Origin: a virus
Reading direction: 5' to 3' (one strand)
DNA: 31,769 bases
IMG/VR virus record: IMGVR_UViG_3300030099_004565
Location: 1 to 31,769 of that record
A program made the position numbers and the translations under genes. The notes beneath the pieces were generated by a model. That model searched no databases. It was not told where the DNA came from and saw only the letters and a list, made by a program, of their open reading frames with translations. Shown here in pieces: positions 3,602 through 28,566 of this stretch. Each line of letters starts with the position of its first letter. Position 1 is the stretch's first letter.

Positions 3602-3641
3602 AAAGCCGAGGTACAAATTTAACAGTGCCTCGGCTTTTCCT
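3602..3641. terminator. bidirectional intrinsic terminator between converging units
   Basis: AAAGCCGAGG (3602-3611) pairs with CCTCGGCTTT (3628-3637), and TAC/GTG can extend the stem inward to 13 bp around a 10-base loop. A T-rich run (TTTTCCTTTT) follows on the + side, ending the 3262 gene. On the - side the stem's own TTT run could also stop the leftward unit, whose last gene ends at 3663. Confidence 0.82.
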
Positions 3642-3662: not shown

Positions 3663-4148
3663 TTATTTAATAAGTTTCAATGCGTCTTTTAAATCATCTA
3701 GATTTTCTGATCGCAGTTTCTCTTCTTGTGTCAATCGCTCGTAAATACGAGTGCAAACATACTTAGCTGCATTTACTCTTGCCATCTCACTAGCCTCAGG
3801 GTCAGCCAGTACATTATTCAATGCTTCAATGGCAGGGAGCAGAAGCTGAGCAAACCGTTTATCAACAGCTCCTAGATTAAAAGCATCCAGCTGGGCTAAC
3901 ACCAATGGTTTGCGCTCTCTGACTGTGTGTGAGTTTTGTACATTTCGAAATGCTACCAGTTTTTTGCGCCAGTTAAACAAAGTGTTTGTATGTACACCCA
4001 TTGCCTTAGCAACCTTTGCATAACTCAAACCTTGTGCAAGTAGCTGAGCAGCTTTGAGTTGAGTGTGTGTTAATCCAGTCGCCAGGTCTATAGCATTATC
4101 CATTTCTTTTCGTTGTAAGTTCTTTGGATTACTTTCTTTCTTAGACAT
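3663..4148 (-). CDS. putative terminase small subunit (HTH protein)
   Basis: The 161-residue protein has a helix-turn-helix near residues 26-62: LTHTQLKAAQLLAQGLSYAK, then VAKAMGVHTNTLFNWRKK. This is the pattern of phage small terminases ('AA.LLA.G.s...VA...gv...T...W'). The rest is helical, including a stretch (LPAIEALNNVLADPEASEMA) like the oligomerisation part of those proteins. The start has a clear GAGGAG five to seven bases upstream, and it overlaps the amidase gene by 8 bp. It would recognise the packaging site and cooperate with the large terminase. Oddly, it is the last gene of the leftward unit, more than 22 kb from the large subunit. A DNA-binding regulator is the main alternative. 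Confidence 0.6.
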   Translation of the reverse strand: MSKKESNPKNLQRKEMDNAIDLATGLTHTQLKAAQLLAQGLSYAKVAKAMGVHTNTLFNWRKKLVAFRNVQNSHTVRERKPLVLAQLDAFNLGAVDKRFAQLLLPAIEALNNVLADPEASEMARVNAAKYVCTRIYERLTQEEKLRSENLDDLKDALKLIK

Positions 4149-4578
4149 TTTGATCTCCTCTAAATTGATTTACTCGCCACTTGCACAACCAATCAAACAA
4201 ATGTTTTCCAGGACAAGCTGTTTCACCCAACTCTCGGTGTCCATAAACTTCATTGGCATCCAATCCAAACTGCGACAGCAATCCATTCAATACCATAACC
4301 AATGATTGCTCTTGTCCTGGTGTCATAGATAAATCATTTTCATAATTACCAACAACACATATACCAATAGAGTGTTGATTGTGACCACGGCAATGAGCAC
4401 CTACCCTATCAAAAGATCGACCCATCATTATACTACCATCAGCTACGATTACATAATGGTATCCAATCCCATTCCAGCCCCGGTCATTGTGCCAATCATT
4501 TATCATATCTCTGGTGGTGTTTTGCTGAGATGATGCACTGTGGTGCACAAAGATTTTATTAATACGTCTCATTACCAT
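4141..4578 (-). CDS. N-acetylmuramoyl-L-alanine amidase endolysin (T7-lysozyme type)
   Basis: The protein cuts the amide bond between MurNAc and L-Ala in peptidoglycan. The amidase_2 fold fills its 145 residues. Zinc ligands are visible as His12 in FVHHSAS, His114 in YGHRELG and Cys122 in ACPG, matching the His-His-Cys set of T7 lysozyme; GYHYVI (39-44) and IGICVVG (71-77) are further family blocks. There is no signal peptide or wall-binding domain, so it needs a holin to reach its substrate, as expected for a Gram-negative host. An alternative ATG at 4572 overlaps the previous stop (TAATG) and would shorten it by two residues. T7 lysozyme also inhibits T7 RNA polymerase, but no phage polymerase is encoded here. 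Confidence 0.9.
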   Translation of the reverse strand: MVMRRINKIFVHHSASSQQNTTRDMINDWHNDRGWNGIGYHYVIVADGSIMMGRSFDRVGAHCRGHNQHSIGICVVGNYENDLSMTPGQEQSLVMVLNGLLSQFGLDANEVYGHRELGETACPGKHLFDWLCKWRVNQFRGDQNV

Positions 4579-4847
4579 TTAACCTTGTTTGCCCAATACG
4601 CTGCACTCATTTTACCCTTCTTTATATTTTTTGCGTGGCGAGCTTTAAATGATTTTGCACGTTTTGTCATAGTCCGATCACCAGTTTTACCTTGCTGTCC
4701 AAATCGTATTAACTTTGTACGGTCACCATCTTTGGCCATTACAACATGACTTTTACTGCCGTGTCCAGGAGTGCGCTTCGGCTTATTAAATCCAGATAAA
4801 CCCAAACGTTTCATCGTTGCTTTAGCACGAGTATGTTTTCCCTTCAT
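4572..4847 (-). CDS. DUF6321-like small basic phage protein
   Basis: This 91-residue, strongly basic protein carries blocks I recognise from marine phages: GFNKPKRTPGHGSKSHVV, then LIRFGQQG, then FKARHAKNI and KGKMSAAYWANKVKW at the C terminus. The family is named DUF6321 from memory; its role is not established to my knowledge. It could bind DNA or another acidic partner, possibly in the virion. It starts with an ATGA overlap with the preceding DUF5872-like gene and is followed at once by the endolysin. It belongs to a run of five Lys/Arg-rich microproteins. Confidence 0.75.
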   Translation of the reverse strand: MKGKHTRAKATMKRLGLSGFNKPKRTPGHGSKSHVVMAKDGDRTKLIRFGQQGKTGDRTMTKRAKSFKARHAKNIKKGKMSAAYWANKVKW

Positions 4848-5086
4848 CGTTTCTTTCCTTTGTGTAAACCGTGACGAGCGTGTTGCTTACCCTTACGTGT
4901 AGCCTCTCGCTTCTTGCGATTTGCTGCGGCCAGTTTACGTCTACCAGCTGGAGTGCTTTTTAGCTTTTTAATCTGTGCTGATGGAGCATAAACTTCACCA
5001 GTTTTTTTCGATGGTTTGCCTGATGGAGTGCGCCACTTCTGACGCGTCCATTTTTTCAGGCTCTTCTGGCTTTTTTTCAATGGCAT
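4844..5086 (-). CDS. DUF5872-like small basic phage protein
   Basis: The 80-residue protein is about one-third Lys plus Arg. Its N-terminal block (SLKKWTRQKWRTPSGKPSKK) is the hallmark of a small phage/virus family that I place as DUF5872. A short middle part (YAPSAQIKKL) is followed by a Lys/Arg-rich tail (KKREATRKGKQHARHGLHKG). The start overlaps the preceding 37-aa gene by one base (TAATG). It has no membrane segment. Nucleic-acid binding is plausible from charge alone. Confidence 0.72.
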   Translation of the reverse strand: MPLKKSQKSLKKWTRQKWRTPSGKPSKKTGEVYAPSAQIKKLKSTPAGRRKLAAANRKKREATRKGKQHARHGLHKGKKR

Positions 5087-5199
5087 TATTTTTTCTTAAT
5101 GCGTATCATTTTTTTCTTTTTCGGCTTCATCATCGAGGTCTTCTTCTTTTTTGGTGGTCGTCCTTTTTTACTTCCGTATGTTCCTGGGCCTTTTGGCAT
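5086..5199 (-). CDS. 37-aa Lys-rich microprotein (GTYGSKKGRPP type)
   Basis: This tiny gene is below usual length cut-offs. It begins MPKGPGTYGSKKGRPPKKKK and ends in a second Lys run (KPKKKKMIRIKKK). The 'GTYG-K-GRPP-KKK' opening recurs at the N terminus of small proteins in many aquatic phages, which argues for a real gene. It has a good ribosome site (GGGAGA about four bases before the ATG) and sits tightly between genes: its stop overlaps the DUF5872-like start, and its start is one base after the previous stop. GRPP-type segments are AT-hook-like (R-G-R-P), so minor-groove DNA binding is possible; here the core reads KGRPP. Confidence 0.72.
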   Translation of the reverse strand: MPKGPGTYGSKKGRPPKKKKTSMMKPKKKKMIRIKKK

Positions 5200-5200
5200 T

Positions 5201-5332
5201 TTATCTCCCTTTCTTTTTTGATTTTTTATTGACTACTTTCTGTAAAGTTTTTGCTTGTGCAGCGTGTGATTTTGAAGCTTTCTTCAAACCCTTAATCACC
5301 TTTTTTATTTTATTTTTGTTCTGTTTTTTCAT
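5201..5332 (-). CDS. 43-aa Lys-rich microprotein (IKGLKKASKxHA type)
   Basis: This is another very short gene. The protein reads as a single basic helix with the core KKVIKGLKKASKSHAAQAKT, a block I have seen in small proteins beside lysis genes of aquatic phages. It starts with an ATGA overlap with the upstream 61-aa gene and has a GGTGG ribosome site seven bases before the ATG. Its C terminus is Lys-rich (KKSKKKGR). The tight spacing on both sides supports expression. Function unknown. Confidence 0.72.
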   Translation of the reverse strand: MKKQNKNKIKKVIKGLKKASKSHAAQAKTLQKVVNKKSKKKGR

Positions 5333-5514
5333 CGGTATCCACCGCCTTTAGCTTTGTATTGCTTGGCAAGCATCTGTGCTTTACGAGCTGACCACTGCCC
5401 AGGCTTTCCACCTTTGCTACCAGCCTTTATCTTTTCAAATAATCGCTTGCGCATTGTTGGTTTGGTATAGTTACCTGCTGCATTGACAGTGCTTTTCTTT
5501 TTTTTCTTTGGCAT
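5329..5514 (-). CDS. 61-aa basic protein (GQWSARKAQ type)
   Basis: The protein begins MPKKKKK and contains AGNYTKPTMRKRLF, then GSKGGKPGQWSARKAQML and a closing AKQYKAKGGGYR. This pattern is well conserved in small proteins of marine phages; I know no assigned function. It has no membrane segment and is strongly basic. It starts at a TAATG overlap with the holin-like gene and its stop overlaps the next microgene, so it is inside one translationally coupled string from lysis genes to terminase small subunit. Confidence 0.78.
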   Translation of the reverse strand: MPKKKKKSTVNAAGNYTKPTMRKRLFEKIKAGSKGGKPGQWSARKAQMLAKQYKAKGGGYR

Positions 5515-8050: not shown

Positions 8051-11000
8051 TTATTTCTTCCTTTCTCGAGTGAGTTCATTAAAGATTTTTTGTATACGAA
8101 ATTCATTTCGCTTGATTAATTCTCGTTCATCAACTGAACGTAGACTTGTTTCTGCTCCCAACAAATACAACAAAACATTTGGTGATGCAAATCTACGCAG
8201 CTGTTGTTTGCGTAAACTTTCATCATCCTGGTCTTTAGCCATTAATGCTTTTGTATAATCTTTAGGTATTCTGTTAACACCCATCAATAATGTAGCTACT
8301 GAAAATGCTGCATATTTTCGAGCACCACTTTTGGTCATCTTATATTGTTGTTGTTGGTCAAATTCATTTGAAAACGTTGGGTCTTGTGGTCGTCTACGTT
8401 TTGGATCAATAGGTGATAGTTCAAAAAGCTCTTTGTAAAATGGCCACATTGCTGTGCCTTTTAAAAGATAAATGTCTTCTGGTGGTACTTTTTTACTGTA
8501 TCTATCCTGCACAACCTGTAATAAAAACTCAAACTCAGGTCGTAAATTTATACCACCTATTAATTTTTCTACAGCAACAGCTGTGGACGGTTCACCAATA
8601 CCCAACAGTCCTATTGTTCTTGTTCCTAACATTAATAAAGTTTCGTAACTTTCAACATACGGATTGCTAAATCCATATGTAAATAAAGGCAAGTTATCAA
8701 TCATACCTTTGTAAAAACTATACATTCGGCTTTTGGCTCTATCATCATTATACAACCAAGCTGCACTTTGTTGTTGTTGTCTCATCGATGCACGAGCAAC
8801 TTTTGCAACAAAGTTATGTCCCAGGTTTTGAGTAACTGCCTTGGCTGTTAGGTTAATTAACTCTGTTGTTATCTGTCTAGTAAAGCTCCAAAAGAAAACA
8901 TATTTTTCAAACAATGATCGTTCTTGTCTACCAATAGATCCATAATCCAACAAGCTACGTTTCGATATTGCAATGGCTTGTTCCAACGGTACATCATCTT
9001 GCAACGCTGTATAAAATGTAGCTCGTCTAAATGTTTGATCTTGATTGTCAGCCAACGTAGACCACAAGCCTCGTTGGTCTGGTCGTATCTTACTCCATAG
9101 CCAACTAGGAGTAGTCAATGGTTTACCTGATAAATCACGCCCAACATCAGTCATTGTTCTTGTTGCTGTACGTTCCTGGAGCTCTACTTTAAATCTACTT
9201 AATCCTAGATTGTATGTGCTTTCCAATTGACGTAGCTCAGCAGCAGTGTATTCTCTTCCACCTTTACTGGTAAATACAACAGCATCATCTGGGTATTTAG
9301 ATATTGCGATTGCTTTCATGTGCATTGGACTAGCTAATCCACCACGAAATGAACGTTCTGGACCCAAAGTACCAGCCATAATTATGTTGGCATTAAATAT
9401 ATTTTGTCCCAGGTATCTGGTAACTGGTACATAAATACCAGCCAGCAATCCACCAGTAGCAATACGTCTAAAAGCCTCTGTTGCAGAGCCAATTGTAGCA
9501 CCAATTAAAGCAAGTTTATCATCATCTTTAATACGCAATCGTTCTAAAGTTGTTCTCAGTTTTGTTGTTTTGGCTAGTGTTTCTAAATTATCAATAGTCT
9601 TTGCCATACCAGCACCATACATCATTGCTATATTTGTGCCTTGTATTTTAGTAAACATAGGTAGATTGCTATTTAAAGCACTGACTATATCATCACCAAC
9701 AGCAACACCATTAGCTTTAAAAAAGTCCTCTGTATTTCGTAAGACATCTTCCATCACACCCATTCCTGGATCTGCATAATACCTGCCATCAACAGGAAAA
9801 CCTTTAAAATATATATCCCATATTTTTTCTTTAACATCATTAACAATATTATTGCGTACATTTTGAGGTATACCCATTTCAGCTATTGGTTGAAATATAC
9901 GATCAAATAAATCATCAACAGTATTATTTACTGCTATGTATGGTTCTGCTAGTATTTGTTGTAATTGATCTCTTGCTGTTGTTAGGTCAGGTTTTAAAGT
10001 TCTTTGTCCTATATTTTGACCACCCCAAACACCTTGTACCCATTTTCGTAAATCATCACGAGTTTTAGTACCTATCTTTGACATTGTATTAAAATGTACA
10101 TCAGCTAATAAACTACCTGCATTTTGACGCTTTGCTTGTGCTGCAAACAATCCAGCTGGATCTCCTTCTTTACCACCAAATGCAGCTTGCGCAAACTCAT
10201 CTACAGCATCATCAATAATGTTGTCATAAACATTGGTTAATGGTTGTAGATTTAACTGCAAATCAGACCCTAAATAGTTTGGTATCATATCAACACCATA
10301 TTCAGGATTGGTTTGTATAAATGCTTTCATTTCATCGTTAACCACTTGTGATTGTCGTATACCTAAAATGTATTCCTGGATTGGTAAGCTCGTTGCTTCC
10401 TTACGATTTATGCCAGCCAACCCTACTGTCTTTAATCCTGTACCTTTAAAAAGTGGTTCTTGTTCTATTCGATTTATAACTTCTAAAAAGTTTGAATAGT
10501 TTATATCCAAAACAGTTGAACCTCTAGAAGCAAAAACTTCCAATCGTCGATCAGCTTCAGATACACCATACAGTTTCCGAATAAACTCAGTGTGAAATGG
10601 ATTTTCATCTATAGCAATTTTAACATAATCACTACCATAATAAGTAGACAACAAAGCTTTCCATTGATCTGATTTATTAAAATATAATCTGTATTCATAA
10701 ATTAAATCTTTTAATTCATCATCTGTAACATTTTTCATACCACCATATTCACGATCAATTAAACTTTTTATTTGATCTCGATATCGTTTTTCAACAAATG
10801 TATTTAAATATGCTTCCCAATCACCCTGGAAACCTCTTTCAACCAGCTCATCTGTAATACGTATCGTTTCTGCTTCAGTTACTTTCCAAGCTGTTTCAGT
10901 CATTTCATCCAAAGCATCTATTGGATTACCATATTCTTTTGATAATCGTTTTAACTCTGTATCAAATTGATCACTAACTTGATCTATTTTTGCCTCTACT

Positions 11001-13657
11001 CGTCGAGTTAAATTTAAAAACTGTGGAGGAGGAGTAACACCAACAACTGGTTTTATTGTTGGAGATGCAGACTGCTGTGCTTTAATAGCTTGTCGACTAA
11101 CTCTGATGTCTCTTATAAAATCTCCCATTGCTCCTTTTTTTAATTGCTTGGCAAACTCTCGTTCTTCACTAACAGCTAATATATCACCACGGAATTCACC
11201 TTGTGCTGCTCGACGGAACTGTTCTCCTCCTGCTCTCATCCGAAACCCATCTAAATGTTTTTCAGCACTGCGAGCAATAAATGCTTCCTGGATTATTTGA
11301 TGATACTTTTGATCGTATGTTCCAAACTGCAATTGAGATATTAAATCTTGATACACTTCAGACTTTCGTACTGTATCTACACCTGCATAATCAATAATGT
11401 GATCTAAGATTTCATTTACAACTTTCTTCTTCTCTTCATTTGATCCAGTTATATTCCACTTTTTATCAGATGGATCGTATTTTAAATTTGCATTCTTACC
11501 TTTTAAATCATTGTAAAACGCATTGTGTTTTTTTGCTTTTGTCCAGGACTTTCTTGGAACAACAACATCAGCACCAATAGCAATCAAATCTTCTGGTAAA
11601 AAGTTTAATAGATTATCAGCTACATCTCGACGTACATCTTTTTTAAATGCCTCATAAATGACATCCAAATCTTGATACGAATATACATCACCAACTATAT
11701 CTTCCAATGCTTTTTGCAGTTGTTGTCGGCCACTCTTTGTACCTGTTCGCAATGTATCAAATACTTGATTGTATAAATTTTTATCAGTAGCAAGAGACTT
11801 AGCCAATGCTGTTCGTACCAACTCTGACTGAAACTGAGTAGTTAATCGAGTAGTATTTAACTTTGGTACTTCTTCAAACCCATATGCCTTCTCTAGCATT
11901 TCACTGGTTTGTTTTTGTATTGCCTCACCTTTATTGTATATTCGAGCAAAATCACTATTGCCCCTTGCAGCATTTTCTAATTTTTTTGCTTCTCGAATTA
12001 AAATGTCATCCAATAAATCCTTAGTAACAACAGCAGCTGGGTCGTCTATTTTTATACCAGCCTCAAGAAGAATACCTTTTGTTGTTGGATTTTCAAGCAT
12101 AAACCCAAGGTTCTTTACAGCAATGTCTTGATTATCAACAATAGATCGTAGCATATTTACAGCAACAACTCGTTCTGCTACAGCTTCAGATGAGTTTTCT
12201 CGTATGGATCTGCGAGCTGCTGAACTATCAATCCAATCATTCCAACTTATTTTACCACTGTAAAATTCATCTTTTATTGCTGCTGATGTACCTTCTCCCA
12301 GGTAATCATCTACAACAGACATTAAACCTTTCATTTTGGTATATTCAATTGGAGCTGTTACTGCTGCTACTACTTCTCCTGTTCGTGGGCCAACTGCTCT
12401 TGCTGTTGCTCTTGCTGCTGCTGCTGTTGGTTTGTAAACAAATTTATATGCAGTAGGTATACCTGTTATTGGTACACCTATTTCTGACCCAAAACCAAAC
12501 ATCCACGCTGCATCTTCTCTGTCTCCAGTTACAAACTCAGCAACACCACCAATAGGTGTATTAGACAACGTTGTTTTTAAATATACATTGGCATCAAATA
12601 GTTGTGGTAGTCCTTGTCCCTTGGCTATATTTACCAGTATTTGATCTGCAACATCTGCACTGTCAGCCATACGATAATCATCAGTTTCAATCGTACCTGG
12701 CATCAATGGTTGTATTGCTGATGATATAACAGCAGGAGCTAAATTTAAACCACCACGCATAGTAGCTGCTAATGGAGTTTCATACACTACACCTGTCTCA
12801 GGTCTAGGTTTAACCAAAGCAAGTTGTGCTGCTCTACCTACATCTGATGCAATATCTTCTCTAAGTTCACCTGCTCTAATGTCAGCTTCAACCATAAATC
12901 TAGGTTTGGTCGTTCCAGGAGTAAGTATATACGATGGACTTTTAGCTCTTTCTTCACGAGCTTCTTTTCGTCTTTGTTCTCGTATTCTTTGTTCTAATAA
13001 TAGATTGGCTTGTTGTAATGTATAATCCTCAGACTTTCCTACAATCTGTCTTTTAAATGCTTCAGCAGCTAACTCAGGGTATGACCCCTCTCGTATTTCT
13101 CCTGTCTCTCTATCACGCAACAATCCTTTTTCGATGTCAACAATATTGCTTTCCATAAATTGAGGAGCATCATAAAACTCAGAAGTCGTTCCCTTCATAT
13201 ATTTATCAGCATCAGCACGAGCTTTTCGTTTTGCTTCTTCAGGACTGTTGCCATACGTTATCTGATACACTTGTTCCATTGTATTAATGTATTTATTACG
13301 AGCAGACAATGGATCTGCTTTTTCACCAAACCTATATGGCATGATACGTTCAACACGAGGAGCAACAACTTCTTCTCGATCTCTCATTAAACTAATTGCT
13401 GGTGCAGTTAGTTCTTCTGGCTCTTCTATTTCAACTGGTTCTTCTGGTCTACGCAAAGCACCGATCATTTCAGACATTGGCTTTTCCAGCTCAATCTCTA
13501 CATCTTCAACTTCTATTTCTACAGGCTCACCTAAATTTTGCTTTTGATTAATTACATCAATAGATTGACGATACTGTGTATAATCAATTGTTTTATTACG
13601 ATATGCTTCTCGTAATTGTTTTTTAGCTTCATCATAATCTAGAGTTGTAGTAGCCAT
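8051..13657 (-). CDS. giant internal virion / DNA-ejection protein (1868 aa)
   Basis: This is the largest gene of the window. The N terminus holds a short charged helix and an acidic Glu-Pro region (residues about 45-85); long charged helical stretches follow to about residue 1380. Near residues 1395-1425 is a hydrophobic part (GGLLAGIYVPVTRYLGQN). Residues about 1560-1610 contain LLDYGSIGRQERSLFEKY and FFWSFTRQITTELI, blocks I associate with very large structural proteins of podoviruses. No lytic transglycosylase or peptidase motif is evident. Its place after the 343- and 422-residue proteins mirrors T7 genes 14-15-16, so I infer a gp16-like role in carrying DNA across the envelope. A polyvalent protein injected into the host is the main alternative. 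Confidence 0.62.
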   Translation of the reverse strand: MATTTLDYDEAKKQLREAYRNKTIDYTQYRQSIDVINQKQNLGEPVEIEVEDVEIELEKPMSEMIGALRRPEEPVEIEEPEELTAPAISLMRDREEVVAPRVERIMPYRFGEKADPLSARNKYINTMEQVYQITYGNSPEEAKRKARADADKYMKGTTSEFYDAPQFMESNIVDIEKGLLRDRETGEIREGSYPELAAEAFKRQIVGKSEDYTLQQANLLLEQRIREQRRKEAREERAKSPSYILTPGTTKPRFMVEADIRAGELREDIASDVGRAAQLALVKPRPETGVVYETPLAATMRGGLNLAPAVISSAIQPLMPGTIETDDYRMADSADVADQILVNIAKGQGLPQLFDANVYLKTTLSNTPIGGVAEFVTGDREDAAWMFGFGSEIGVPITGIPTAYKFVYKPTAAAARATARAVGPRTGEVVAAVTAPIEYTKMKGLMSVVDDYLGEGTSAAIKDEFYSGKISWNDWIDSSAARRSIRENSSEAVAERVVAVNMLRSIVDNQDIAVKNLGFMLENPTTKGILLEAGIKIDDPAAVVTKDLLDDILIREAKKLENAARGNSDFARIYNKGEAIQKQTSEMLEKAYGFEEVPKLNTTRLTTQFQSELVRTALAKSLATDKNLYNQVFDTLRTGTKSGRQQLQKALEDIVGDVYSYQDLDVIYEAFKKDVRRDVADNLLNFLPEDLIAIGADVVVPRKSWTKAKKHNAFYNDLKGKNANLKYDPSDKKWNITGSNEEKKKVVNEILDHIIDYAGVDTVRKSEVYQDLISQLQFGTYDQKYHQIIQEAFIARSAEKHLDGFRMRAGGEQFRRAAQGEFRGDILAVSEEREFAKQLKKGAMGDFIRDIRVSRQAIKAQQSASPTIKPVVGVTPPPQFLNLTRRVEAKIDQVSDQFDTELKRLSKEYGNPIDALDEMTETAWKVTEAETIRITDELVERGFQGDWEAYLNTFVEKRYRDQIKSLIDREYGGMKNVTDDELKDLIYEYRLYFNKSDQWKALLSTYYGSDYVKIAIDENPFHTEFIRKLYGVSEADRRLEVFASRGSTVLDINYSNFLEVINRIEQEPLFKGTGLKTVGLAGINRKEATSLPIQEYILGIRQSQVVNDEMKAFIQTNPEYGVDMIPNYLGSDLQLNLQPLTNVYDNIIDDAVDEFAQAAFGGKEGDPAGLFAAQAKRQNAGSLLADVHFNTMSKIGTKTRDDLRKWVQGVWGGQNIGQRTLKPDLTTARDQLQQILAEPYIAVNNTVDDLFDRIFQPIAEMGIPQNVRNNIVNDVKEKIWDIYFKGFPVDGRYYADPGMGVMEDVLRNTEDFFKANGVAVGDDIVSALNSNLPMFTKIQGTNIAMMYGAGMAKTIDNLETLAKTTKLRTTLERLRIKDDDKLALIGATIGSATEAFRRIATGGLLAGIYVPVTRYLGQNIFNANIIMAGTLGPERSFRGGLASPMHMKAIAISKYPDDAVVFTSKGGREYTAAELRQLESTYNLGLSRFKVELQERTATRTMTDVGRDLSGKPLTTPSWLWSKIRPDQRGLWSTLADNQDQTFRRATFYTALQDDVPLEQAIAISKRSLLDYGSIGRQERSLFEKYVFFWSFTRQITTELINLTAKAVTQNLGHNFVAKVARASMRQQQQSAAWLYNDDRAKSRMYSFYKGMIDNLPLFTYGFSNPYVESYETLLMLGTRTIGLLGIGEPSTAVAVEKLIGGINLRPEFEFLLQVVQDRYSKKVPPEDIYLLKGTAMWPFYKELFELSPIDPKRRRPQDPTFSNEFDQQQQYKMTKSGARKYAAFSVATLLMGVNRIPKDYTKALMAKDQDDESLRKQQLRRFASPNVLLYLLGAETSLRSVDERELIKRNEFRIQKIFNELTRERKK

Positions 13658-24058: not shown

Positions 24059-24525
24059 TACATTCTCCCTGCAAACATTTCATTTATATCAACTTCCATT
24101 ACTGGTTCTTCTTCTACAGTTTCTTCTTCTACTATTTCTTCTTCTACCATTGTGTTTTCCTGGAGAAACTTTTGTAGTGTTTTATCTTTGGCTAACTTTC
24201 GCAACTGACCTGCAACCATAGCCAAGTCTCGATCATCAGTTATTTCTTCCATATCAATTTCAAACTCAACACCAGCATCATCAGCAGCAGCAACAACCAT
24301 ATTTAATGACTGCACAAACTCTTGTGGAAAAATGGTAATGTCTTCCTCAAACTCAGGATATGTTTCACCAAACATTTCTAATACAACATTTAGTTCTTTT
24401 ACCAAACGATTTAAAGCTCCAGCTGAAAACTTACCTTGTGGTTGCATCAAAACAGCTTCTTCAATCATTTCTTCTTGCGCACCAATAGCACTGGCTTGTG
24501 CCATTAAATCTGTAGGAATACTCAT
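24058..24525 (-). CDS. acidic protein of unknown function in the head-assembly block (155 aa)
   Basis: This strongly acidic, helical protein ends in a Glu/Val-rich stretch (VEEEIVEEETVEEEPVMEVD) and the small tail INEMFAGRM. The middle holds a helical segment (LNRLVKELNVVLEMFGETYP). It lies between the zinc-ribbon gene and the scaffold and overlaps both (ATGA and TAATG). A portal- or scaffold-associated assembly factor is possible. I recognise no family. Confidence 0.6.
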   Translation of the reverse strand: MSIPTDLMAQASAIGAQEEMIEEAVLMQPQGKFSAGALNRLVKELNVVLEMFGETYPEFEEDITIFPQEFVQSLNMVVAAADDAGVEFEIDMEEITDDRDLAMVAGQLRKLAKDKTLQKFLQENTMVEEEIVEEETVEEEPVMEVDINEMFAGRM

Positions 24526-25017: not shown

Positions 25018-26688
25018 TTATGGGAGAAACTGTTGAATGTCTTGTGGCGATGGTTGACCCTGCATACCAGCAGATGTTTGCTGTTGTTCTTGTGCTGCTG
25101 CTGCTTGTTGTTGTTGAGGATTTTCCGATGCTCCTTCTATTGCAGAAATAAAAGTTTGTGGTAAATCCAACAAGCGAATTAAATGAGACAACACTTCAGC
25201 TGGAGGAGTACCTAGCTCCAATAGGGTAGGCATTACAGTTAAGAACTCTTGTTTCTTGACCGCCTCACTAACTGGTGTCGCTCCAGTATCATTAGCATAA
25301 TAAGTAAAGTCACCAGTAATGTCCTTTGATTTTATGACAGTAGGTTCGCCATCAATCAGGATAACATCACCATCATCCTGGATGTACAACCGTATCATTG
25401 AAATGTATATTTCTGCAATGTATTCGATAGCACTGTCTCTTTCTCTGGCAAGTCTACCAATCTCAGAAGAAGAATATGCAGCAAGTGCAGTAATCTCTGT
25501 TGCGGTTGCCCGTGAGGATTCTCCTCTAGTAAACGGAGCAAGTACCGAACCGCGTTCGAAATCATCTTGCACTTGTTGCACATAACGTTCTAGCTCCGCA
25601 GGCACAGGTGTATGAGGCACAGACATAATACTATTTCCAAGCTGTTGTCCCTGACTAAGCTCAACTTCAATAAACTCTCCATCAACCCCTTGTGATAGTT
25701 TGCTCATTGCTTCAGCATCAAAAACACCAGCCTCCACCACCCATTGACGAGCTGACCTACGCACCATCGAGGCCTGATAAGTGCGTAGGATATTCAACTC
25801 TTGTACTTGATCATACACTCGTCGAAGCGCAGAATAGCCTCGCATTGGAAGGTCTGGCTGTCTGCTAAAGAACAATGGAATGATAGGACTAATTGGATTG
25901 TCCGTAGCATCCCGAAACGGAATAGCAGAGTATTTCACTTCTCTGATATTGTCTTCCTCTCCCTCCGGCAGAACAATACCATCGTAAAGAAACTTCTCAC
26001 CATTCCTATAGTCTGGTGACCAGACATACAGTTTATCATTTACAAGATCATAAAACTCTAAAATTTCCACATATTGAAACTCTGGTTCTGTGTCTTCAAA
26101 TGTTTTATTATTGTATCCATCATCACCATTAACTCTATCTAAAAATCGAATTAATGAATGAGCACTAAACTTTTTTGGACCATATTTATCTCTGGCCTCT
26201 TTTAATGTCAGATGATACCGATGGCCAACAAACTTTTGATCAGACCAAGCAGCTGCATCCTCATCAACAATTACATCCCAGGGTGGAATGGCGCAAACGG
26301 AAACTCTTTTAAAAGGATCTTTGTGGTCATTGGGTAACAACTTTAAAAATGCACAAGGGTTAATTAGTGCGAGCCTACTGGCATCTTCAAGCTGTGACCG
26401 TATACCATCCAAAAAATTATTACACAAGGCTTGTACAATTTGTGGATTGCCATTACCTCTAACATCACCTTTTACCACTACTGATGGGCTACGTGCAAAC
26501 AATGAGGCAATGTATCCTTCTATAAATTCATAAGCTCTACTGGTTTCAATTACTACCTGTTGTGGAGCTTCTAATTTATTCCAGTACCGTGTCATATATG
26601 CTGATCGGAGTTGTCGTAGTTCTGGGCGTTGTTCGTCCCAATACTTTTCGTGATTGGCATAATAGGCTGCAATGGTAATCGGCTTCAT
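25018..26688 (-). CDS. portal protein
   Basis: The 556-residue protein lies directly after the large terminase. Blocks that fit a podoviral portal are the N-terminal helix (YYANHEKYWDEQRPELRQLR), a Trp/Asp-rich clip-wing region (CAIPPWDVIVDEDAAAWSDQ), ATEITALAAYSSSEIGRL in the stem helices near residue 400, and a Gln/Ala-rich C-terminal tail (QQQQAAAAQEQQQTSAGMQ). It would form the dodecameric ring through which DNA is packaged and leave the head. I chose ATG 26688 because it overlaps the terminase stop (ATGA); an in-frame GTG at 26703 is possible. Confidence 0.85.
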   Translation of the reverse strand: MKPITIAAYYANHEKYWDEQRPELRQLRSAYMTRYWNKLEAPQQVVIETSRAYEFIEGYIASLFARSPSVVVKGDVRGNGNPQIVQALCNNFLDGIRSQLEDASRLALINPCAFLKLLPNDHKDPFKRVSVCAIPPWDVIVDEDAAAWSDQKFVGHRYHLTLKEARDKYGPKKFSAHSLIRFLDRVNGDDGYNNKTFEDTEPEFQYVEILEFYDLVNDKLYVWSPDYRNGEKFLYDGIVLPEGEEDNIREVKYSAIPFRDATDNPISPIIPLFFSRQPDLPMRGYSALRRVYDQVQELNILRTYQASMVRRSARQWVVEAGVFDAEAMSKLSQGVDGEFIEVELSQGQQLGNSIMSVPHTPVPAELERYVQQVQDDFERGSVLAPFTRGESSRATATEITALAAYSSSEIGRLARERDSAIEYIAEIYISMIRLYIQDDGDVILIDGEPTVIKSKDITGDFTYYANDTGATPVSEAVKKQEFLTVMPTLLELGTPPAEVLSHLIRLLDLPQTFISAIEGASENPQQQQAAAAQEQQQTSAGMQGQPSPQDIQQFLP

Positions 26689-28205
26689 ACGTTCTTCTTC
26701 CACGGTATTGGTTGTTGTTTTATCTTCTTGGCTCTTGTTTCTGATATTAGCATATCCATTAAGTTTCGTCGAACCAACTTCAATTTTCGTCTAGGTATAT
26801 CTCTTAAACAACGATACGCCAATGCAATACTCATTGCAAGGTCATCGTGCATTCCTGTAGGTGCTTCCGGGGTAACTTTTAATACAACCAAACATCGGAG
26901 CTCGGCCAACACTTGTGCATCCATTTTCATAATCATACCCTCTGTAATGTACTCTCTTAGGGTTTCATAAGCATCCAGTTTGCTTTTGGTTGTTGTAGTC
27001 CAGTCTTTACCATCTACTGTACACCACAAGTTCTTGTATCCAAAGTGGCGCAAACGATACAATACAACGTGACCGTGATTGTTACTTTCACAGAGTACAC
27101 GGGCATCATTAAACCATTGTGCTATATCCATTACTTTGTCAGCAAATGCAGATGGACTTATTGTATTACTGCGGTAATGAAATACAGGCTGCAATGTTGC
27201 CATAGAAATAACAGATATAGCAGAATAATCCCTACCAACACCAGCAGCAACATCAACACCCATCGCATATACATCATCATCCCTGGGATCTTCATACAAT
27301 CGTTCCTCTCCATTAAAGTGTATCTCTTCAATGTCTCGTATATCATCCAAACTAAAGTATGCAGCAGAGGCATAATGAAACGCATCATCCAAACAACCAG
27401 GATACTCCCGGCGAAACTTTTCTAGACCAAGAGTAGCTATCTGATTGCGTCTCCAATAAAGCTGGTCAAAGTCTAGATTGTATTGCTTAATAAGCCATTG
27501 TTCTTCTTCGCTTGGTTCAAAGTCTTTGGGTGCTTCTTGTTTGTACTTCTGGTGTTCCCACCACCAATAAGTTACCAAGTGCCAACCATTTTCAGGAGCA
27601 CCCATAATCAAACGATGAAAAGTATCTGCTGGTTGGTCCGGAGTACTTTCAATAATAATCTGTCCAGTACCAACAGTAGCTACAATCTGTGCCAGCATTT
27701 CTTGTGGGTCATCATAGAAAGCAAACTCAGACAAGTGTACACTACTAAGCATAAACGATCGTGTACCACCCTTTGAACCAGCAGTAAAAGAAGACAACTC
27801 AGAGCCACTGTCAGCAAACGACATCGTTGTAGCATTATCAATAGACAGCTTACGTTGCAGTATTAATGGCAAGCTGTCATGCATTAGCTTGTCCATACGA
27901 CGTAGGTTCTTTGCTGAACGCTGGTGAAAACTAATTACACCAAACTTTAACGGGTCTTTTGTTGTATATGTTTGCCACAAAGCATAGGCTCTTAGTAATG
28001 TAGAGATACCAATCTGCCGAGGTTTGAGAATAATTATCTTTTGGTGTTGTTGTAGTTTTTTTATAAGTTCTTCTTGTTCACTATTCGGACTGAACCTGAC
28101 CAGTTTACCACTATATTTATCCTGTATTTTCAACAACTTAACAAACTTCAGTGGATCTTGTAATACCTTATTCAATTCTTCCTGGACATCATCAGGTAAC
28201 TTCAT
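26685..28205 (-). CDS. terminase large subunit (ATPase and nuclease)
   Basis: The 506-residue protein carries a deviant Walker A (KPRQIGIST, about 61-69), a Walker B-like block (VHLSEFAFYDD, about 156-166), a coupling motif (IIIESTP near 184-190), and an RNase-H-like nuclease with Asp318 in GVDVAAGVGRDYSA, Glu373 in CESNNHG and the Asp pair 454-455 in GMHDDLAMS. It powers DNA translocation and cuts concatemers. I prefer ATG 28205, six bases after GAGG; the in-frame TTG codons upstream are less likely. It overlaps the resolvase gene by 14 bp. The pairing with RusA and the circular map suggest headful cutting. Confidence 0.95.
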   Translation of the reverse strand: MKLPDDVQEELNKVLQDPLKFVKLLKIQDKYSGKLVRFSPNSEQEELIKKLQQHQKIIILKPRQIGISTLLRAYALWQTYTTKDPLKFGVISFHQRSAKNLRRMDKLMHDSLPLILQRKLSIDNATTMSFADSGSELSSFTAGSKGGTRSFMLSSVHLSEFAFYDDPQEMLAQIVATVGTGQIIIESTPDQPADTFHRLIMGAPENGWHLVTYWWWEHQKYKQEAPKDFEPSEEEQWLIKQYNLDFDQLYWRRNQIATLGLEKFRREYPGCLDDAFHYASAAYFSLDDIRDIEEIHFNGEERLYEDPRDDDVYAMGVDVAAGVGRDYSAISVISMATLQPVFHYRSNTISPSAFADKVMDIAQWFNDARVLCESNNHGHVVLYRLRHFGYKNLWCTVDGKDWTTTTKSKLDAYETLREYITEGMIMKMDAQVLAELRCLVVLKVTPEAPTGMHDDLAMSIALAYRCLRDIPRRKLKLVRRNLMDMLISETRAKKIKQQPIPWKKNV

Positions 28206-28566
28206 CAACAACCTCTATTTCCAAAATGAATGACCATTCACTTTTTACATACTTCTTCGATGCAACCAGCATTTCTATTTGAGCATCATCTTCATACACA
28301 ATCTTATTGAGTGCATCACACACAGAAGCAAAACAATTTTGTAAATCACGTCTTCGTCGATCACCAAATACTACATCAAGTGACAGCTTGACTGGTTTAT
28401 CTGTTATTACCCATCCTTGTTCTCGAACAGCAGCAGCAGCAGTCCAAGCCAACCACTTCTCAAAGTCTTTTACATCTTTGAGTTTGTATACCTGGTTACC
28501 ACGAACACGCATCATATTCTTTTTCATTGGGATTTTACGGTCACCCTTAATAATCAAACTACTCAT
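28192..28566 (-). CDS. rusA: RusA-family Holliday-junction resolvase, variant active site
   Basis: The protein is about 124 residues from ATG 28566, close to RusA length (about 120). The family core is clear: GDRRRRDLQNCFASVCDALN, then VYEDDAQIE and ASKKY. In E. coli RusA, from memory, Asp70, Asp72, Lys76 and Asp91 serve catalysis in 'RDLDN..K ... DD'. Here the first Asp and the DD pair remain, but the second Asp is Gln (RDLQN) and the Lys position reads Ala. It may resolve or trim branched replication intermediates before packaging, which its overlap with the terminase gene supports, or its activity may be reduced. Two upstream in-frame ATGs would extend it into the previous gene. Confidence 0.82.
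   Translation of the reverse strand: MSSLIIKGDRKIPMKKNMMRVRGNQVYKLKDVKDFEKWLAWTAAAAVREQGWVITDKPVKLSLDVVFGDRRRRDLQNCFASVCDALNKIVYEDDAQIEMLVASKKYVKSEWSFILEIEVVDEVT

Follow-up and report, generated by a model that had tools for sequence, protein, structure and literature searches.

Two of the five tiny basic genes described here, A61 and D80, are best seen from their sequence relationships as the N- and C-terminal halves of one DUF5872 protein, and a third, E91, corresponds to a compact domain found in other phages as part of a portal fusion protein or a capsid protease. The chances appear about even that the five constitute a cassette, expressed late, of small basic proteins that associate with the head, face the DNA, and resemble the internal proteins of phage T4. 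The A61, D80, and E91 families turn up very often in aquatic viral sequences and had already been catalogued, without an assigned function. What is new is the split DUF5872 pair, the linked A61-D80-E91 set, and the connection of E91 to portal and capsid-protease proteins. An anonymous string of tiny genes becomes a testable hypothesis in head biology for many marine phages, one that also has a bearing on bacteria and perhaps on giant algal viruses.

Gene content and coding constraint

The window (i.e. the whole stretch of DNA that was analyzed) is an IMG/VR virus record of 31,769 bases. The five genes were lettered A to E in the order in which they are transcribed from the minus strand. All five open reading frames (ORFs) were found where the sequence-only reading had placed them (Table 1), and each gene either shares 1-4 bases with the next or is one base away from it, as it had also described. 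Lysine and arginine make up 30-46% of the residues of the five proteins, and the net charges are +18 (A61), +18 (B43), +17 (C37), +27 (D80), and +24 (E91). In each of the five families, at least 95% of the homologues have a net charge above +5.

Table 1. The five-gene string and its immediate neighbors in the window, in order of transcription.
Feature	Position	Strand	Observations
Holin-like ORF, 109 aa	5514..5843	-	One hydrophobic stretch and a coiled coil; directly upstream of A61
A61, 61-aa basic protein	5329..5514	-	phrog_17747; GQWSARKAQ block
B43, 43-aa basic protein	5201..5332	-	Recurrent segment KKVIKGLKKASKxHAxQAKxL
C37, 37-aa basic protein	5086..5199	-	MPxGxGTYGxxxGRPxKK and Lys-rich tail
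D80, 80-aa basic protein	4844..5086	-	phrog_14910; SLKKWTRQKW block
E91, 91-aa basic protein	4572..4847	-	phrog_7595; domain common to portal/capsid-protease fusions
Endolysin, N-acetylmuramoyl-L-alanine amidase	4141..4578	-	PF01510, E = 9e-22; phrog_822, E = 7e-41; directly downstream of the string
HTH protein like small terminase subunits	3663..4148	-	phrog_2538, E = 1.7e-9; last gene of the late unit

The nearest relative among the matches listed, L170, carries all five genes in identical order at about 90-92% DNA identity. Relative to L170, dN and dS were.021 and.352 for A61 (dN/dS 0.06), 0 and.299 for B43,.011 and.214 for C37 (dN/dS 0.05),.005 and.163 for D80 (dN/dS 0.03), and.019 and.318 for E91 (dN/dS 0.06). 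The five genes together showed 44 synonymous changes and 9 non-synonymous ones, and non-synonymous change ran at about 1/20 of synonymous change; the changes per gene are few, and their direction is identical in all five. Because the changes are overwhelmingly synonymous, the five ORFs are, as judged from this comparison, genuine, translated, and constrained genes under purifying selection. Low dN/dS values were found throughout, rather than the relaxed codon constraint (dN/dS near 1) that the sequence-only reading had named as evidence against itself.

Purine-rich stretches resembling Shine-Dalgarno sequences stand 5' of at least B43, C37, and E91 (GGGAG in the case of C37), and the start codon of D80 overlaps the stop codon of C37 (TAATG). 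No promoters or terminators internal to the cassette rose above shuffled expectation. It had been supposed that the 43- and 37-residue genes would normally be missed in annotation. This held only in part. Annotated isolates list genes of 29-37 residues in the equivalent slot (Lederberg_57, 29 aa; MEP402_gp51, 37 aa), whereas such an omission does affect the 91-residue family: Roseophage SIO1 (AF189021) has a clear E91 homologue at 24065-24277 that has no annotated gene.

Genomic context

The same-strand genes upstream of the string encode tail-fibre, head, portal, and terminase proteins. The placement of the string between a holin-like gene and the endolysin was borne out, the flanks being the 109-residue ORF and the PF01510 amidase; the holin-like ORF matched no holin family, and its label derives from sequence features. 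The five genes belong to a late structural, lysis, and packaging unit. This late-operon position disfavors a role in early takeover of the host, one of the three functions that had been proposed for the string.

Co-occurrence of the five families

Eighty loci were anchored on A61; D80 was present on the same strand in all 80 and E91 in 54. Around D80, A61 was found in 73 of 80 loci and E91 in 31, again on the same strand. The 80 loci anchored on B43 contained A61 in 18 cases, D80 in 24, and E91 in 16, and the 80 anchored on C37 contained them in 13, 15, and 20 cases, respectively. As a control, 74 viral loci were drawn by an arbitrary 16-mer; together they amount to a comparable 696 kb, and no member of any of the five families was present (0/74). 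Fisher p values ranged from 1e-4 to 1e-45 for the pairs among A61, D80, and E91 and for each of these with a B43 or C37 anchor; the loci include related phages, and the counts are not phylogenetically independent. B43 and C37 showed no significant association with each other in the Fisher tests.

A61 and D80 are near-obligate neighbors, E91 is their frequent companion, and the gathering is not due to chance; a lack of co-occurrence above the chance level was the other outcome that the sequence-only reading had named as evidence against itself. B43 and C37 are looser associates of these three, above the control level. The earlier description of the sequence blocks as occurring singly in other aquatic phages was thus incorrect, since A61 and D80 are nearly always together and E91 is often alongside. 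A joint task, which had been suggested for all five, gained support for A61, D80, and E91 from their same-strand co-occurrence (compared with 0/74 in the control) and from the fusions of A61 with D80 described below. The suggestion fared less well for B43 and C37, which exceed the control but are not associated mutually; the exact five-gene string was found, among the matches listed, only in the window and its close relative L170.

A61, D80, and E91 are repeatedly met as a same-strand set in the company of tail-fibre, terminase, and portal genes. In 253 IMG/VR loci with the A61-D80 module, genes for tail-fibre, TerL, portal, tail, and major head proteins are among the most frequent identifiable neighbors of the module. 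Comparable basic cassettes occupy the equivalent slot in the pelagiphages and Zobellviridae Lederberg EXVC029P, HTVC034P, and MEP402, where A61-D80 follows other small basic genes, including DUF6321. In MEP402, the genes for a 37-residue protein (+15), a DUF6321 protein (+24), A61, and D80 stand directly before TerL, and the strings in Lederberg and HTVC034P are like it. These cassettes differ from that of the window in having other extra members, and no E91 was present among the tblastn matches listed for them.

A61 and D80 as halves of DUF5872

Significant PHROG profile matches covered most of A61 (phrog_17747, E = 4e-37), D80 (phrog_14910, E = 4e-18), and E91 (phrog_7595, E = 8e-33); all three profiles are described as "unknown function". 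D80 also matched Pfam PF19197 (DUF5872) over profile positions 51-109 (E = 1.4e-4), at 22.9 bits compared to a Pfam gathering score of 27.5 bits, and A61 alone had no match to this profile. A homologue in which A61 and D80 are fused reached 26.2 bits, also below the gathering score, over profile positions 6-74, i.e. from the start of the profile. An Azospirillum homologue passed the gathering score (28.5 bits).

A61 and D80 form a single gene, with the halves collinear, in at least 69 relatives. Because of these fusions, and because the fused form matches DUF5872 from its start, A61 and D80 were assigned to the N- and C-terminal parts, respectively, of the family to which phrog_17747 and phrog_14910 would both belong. 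The window differs from the fused homologues, which are collinear with the DUF5872 profile, in having two genes; either half by itself scores below the cut-off. Separation of the pair is in itself frequent, with at most 20 bases between A61 and D80 in 48 of 80 A61 loci; peculiar to the window is the presence of B43 and C37 between the halves.

A61-D80 is strongly conserved across phages and bacteria. DUF5872 was also located in ordinary bacterial chromosomes and chromids, and no shared gene neighborhood was found there, the biggest neighbor family being present in 8 of 80 loci. For this reason, DUF5872 is not exclusively a head protein. The alphaproteobacterial DUF5872 proteins carry a C-terminal Rho_N-like nucleic-acid-binding domain that is absent from the pair in the window; this Rho_N-like end fits with nucleic-acid contact.

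The E91 domain in portal and protease proteins

The predicted structure of E91 (AF2) had a pLDDT of 89 and a pTM of 0.79. The profile used in the search for fusions was built only from the E91 of the window and its IMG/VR homologues. In CL131 gp012 (1393 aa), the E91 domain occupies residues 534-604, preceded by a portal domain (60-419; Phage_portal_3) and followed by InPase (631-752) and MuF (991-1103) domains. ICP1 Gp125, which is annotated as a capsid protease in the head operon, has its protease part first and then E91 at 175-261 (HMM E = 7e-16). The order is reversed in Aeromonas 4L372XY_107, in which E91 (66-150) precedes Peptidase_S78_2 (176-287), and this reversal indicates that the attachment of E91 is modular. 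PHROG scans agreed on the E91 domain in CL131 and 4L372XY, and the BFVD fold matches of E91 include XkdF, ICP1 ORF125, and a 1393-residue protein of the CL131 length. CL131 gp012 (ORF012) is among the proteins that LC-MS/MS detected in purified virus particles (PMC6293099), and ICP1 gp125 belongs to a capsid morphogenesis cluster with late transcription (PMC7567579).

E91 is a member of phrog_7595, a domain that is also found inside phrog_220 portal/minor head proteins and capsid proteases. The version in the window differs in standing alone and in being far more basic (+24, compared to +7 in CL131 and +1 in 4L372XY_107). Since the two fused versions measured range from +1 to +7, the strong charge has been elaborated in the phage forms that stand alone and does not define the domain.

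Two labels on E91 homologues were not adopted. "HVA1 family", on the CRP-901 homologue, was rejected; that protein matches phrog_7595 and no Pfam HVA1 model. Pfam did not reproduce the label "Peptidase_S78_2" on the GR11A homologue, which was therefore left out of the fusions. A subgroup of E91 homologues (L091, L096, L104, L155, and L161) has a conserved cysteine pair (RARHxC...YWSC) that is absent from the protein in the window. Distant E91 variants match DUF5754 of giant algal viruses weakly (E = 0.3-0.7), far below the cut-off; the BFVD fold matches of E91 include Tunisvirus, and the C. parva virus has both DUF5754 and DUF5872.

B43 and C37

B43 was fused to the N-terminus of A61 in at least 15 ORFs. 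Elsewhere it either stands by itself or is attached to further small basic domains, and its place in the protein may be N-terminal, internal, or C-terminal. Twelve columns are invariant in its alignment (A4). In L537, L545, L576, and other B43 loci, it is fused to a "YPSAYANA" domain, some versions of which contain cysteines; the example from L537 also matches the N-terminal half of DUF5872. A profile comparison of A61 with this B43-fused YPSAYA domain gave no decision; both match the N-terminal half of DUF5872 in Pfam. A 319-residue protein (L525:2173-3132) joins a YPSAYA domain to a B43 segment at its C-terminus through a middle part rich in Gly and Lys, which suggests that these modules can be linked into one chain.

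The motif M-P-x-G-x-G-T-Y-G-x3-G-R-P was invariant in 12 homologues of C37, and the Lys-rich tail was kept. Compared to the R-G-R-P core of the AT-hook, G-R-P is invariant in these 12 homologues, and the preceding residue is K, R, V, or T. C37 had no Pfam AT-hook match.

Searches for a DNA-binding fold

PDB sequence searches with E91 and the fused A61-D80 homologue returned nothing significant. Fold searches of the PDB with the predictions for both gave Foldseek E values above 0.6 and VIA-align Z scores of at most 2.2, with no convincing match, which does not make either fold new. DNA binding is therefore not supported by fold. Among Pfam matches up to E = 1, there was no HU, H-NS, HMG, or other DNA-binding family, and a search of NCBIfam gave no matches. 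The link to DNA is weaker than the link to the head.

Proposed function and alternatives

The head role is favored because the E91 domain is fused to portal and capsid-protease proteins. These fusions sustain the part of the earlier proposal that concerned the head and its DNA; DNA condensation as such is no more than a candidate role, the fused head versions carrying little positive charge, and the RNA-binding function that had also been proposed may be another. In the proposed mechanism, A61 and D80 would act jointly as one DNA-contacting unit, E91 would dock at the portal or the inner procapsid in the manner of its fused homologues, and B43 and C37, both short and rich in lysine, would play an accessory or adaptor part. 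The whole set would be incorporated with the incoming genome, with its Lys-rich surfaces touching DNA phosphate, and might be ejected together with the genome. No virion peptides of the five proteins or of stand-alone homologues were found in the literature, nor were virion proteomes of the carrier isolates. The presence of DUF5872 in bacterial chromosomes, where there is no head to fill, argues against a head-only reading.

About a thousand copies of the T4 internal proteins are packaged, with their lysines in contact with DNA phosphate (PMC3012670). The likeness to IPI, IPII, and IPIII lies in the small size, the basicity, the presence of several per genome, and the late/head context of the five proteins. 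B43 likewise recurs as a segment on different partners. The T4 proteins share a capsid targeting sequence at the N-terminus, which the prohead protease removes; B43 is not strictly N-terminal. By analogy, the cassette would work like the T4 internal proteins, and membership in that class is not claimed.

The proteins could instead be late factors that bind nucleic acid and remain in the cell, where they coat or protect new genomes or aid packaging by the terminase, and are not virion components. We regard this as somewhat unlikely. The DUF5872 relatives in bacteria stand alone and end in a Rho_N-like tail, the module is often close to terminase genes (in the window, it is near the small-terminase-like gene), and the high positive charge would suit such factors; against this stands the E91 domain as part of portal and capsid-protease proteins, one of which was found in virions. 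Packaging is retained in the reading that the proteins are ejected effectors acting mainly in the cell infected next, against restriction or defence in the manner of T4 IPI*, their charge serving packaging only. The T4 internal proteins are diverse defence proteins that have only the capsid targeting sequence in common (PMC3012670), and interchangeable small basic proteins with a recurrent B43 on varied domains resemble them. CL131 gp012 points in the same direction, as it combines portal, E91-like, InPase, and MuF domains, and architectures of its kind have been interpreted as injected polyvalent proteins (PMC5512222). However, the very low dN/dS and the strong conservation of A61-D80 are atypical of fast-evolving counter-defence proteins, and the N-terminal, internal, and C-terminal positions of B43 are unlike an N-terminal targeting sequence; we consider this reading quite improbable.

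The least likely rival, and a very improbable one, holds that the five are lysis helpers, i.e. cationic peptides acting on the envelope with the holin and endolysin. Their position exactly between those two genes in the window invites this reading, as does the E91 homologue of CRP-13, which directly follows the endolysin. In many relatives, however, the module adjoins tail-fibre, TerL, or portal genes and not lysis genes, the domains also occur in head proteins and bacterial proteins, and the sequences have no evident secretion signal or membrane segment.

A broader extension of the head-associated reading is that a modular "head chromatin" kit is common to aquatic phages and perhaps also to giant algal viruses, in which interchangeable small basic domains assemble together at the portal and organize the packaged genome; we hold it to be unlikely. 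Its parts, in the same speculative vein, would be the DUF5872 halves, phrog_7595, DUF6321, and short Lys-rich tags, present as separate genes or fused to portal or protease. If true, the kit would be a genome-organizing system not described for tailed phages.

Other features of the window

The small-terminase-like HTH gene that follows the endolysin lies about 22 kb from the large terminase gene (26685-28211). An inverted repeat, AAAGCCGAGG...CCTCGGCTTTT, was noted at 3602-3640, just past the last late gene and between convergent gene sets. By eye, it looks like a bidirectional terminator; its loop exceeds the length that the terminator scan covers. The structural region contains an ORF of 1868 residues (8051-13657) with no Pfam match, which probably encodes a very large virion protein. 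On the plus strand, opposite to the late unit, a protein encoded at 51-713 matches PF17338 ("Gene product 88"; E = 5e-21).
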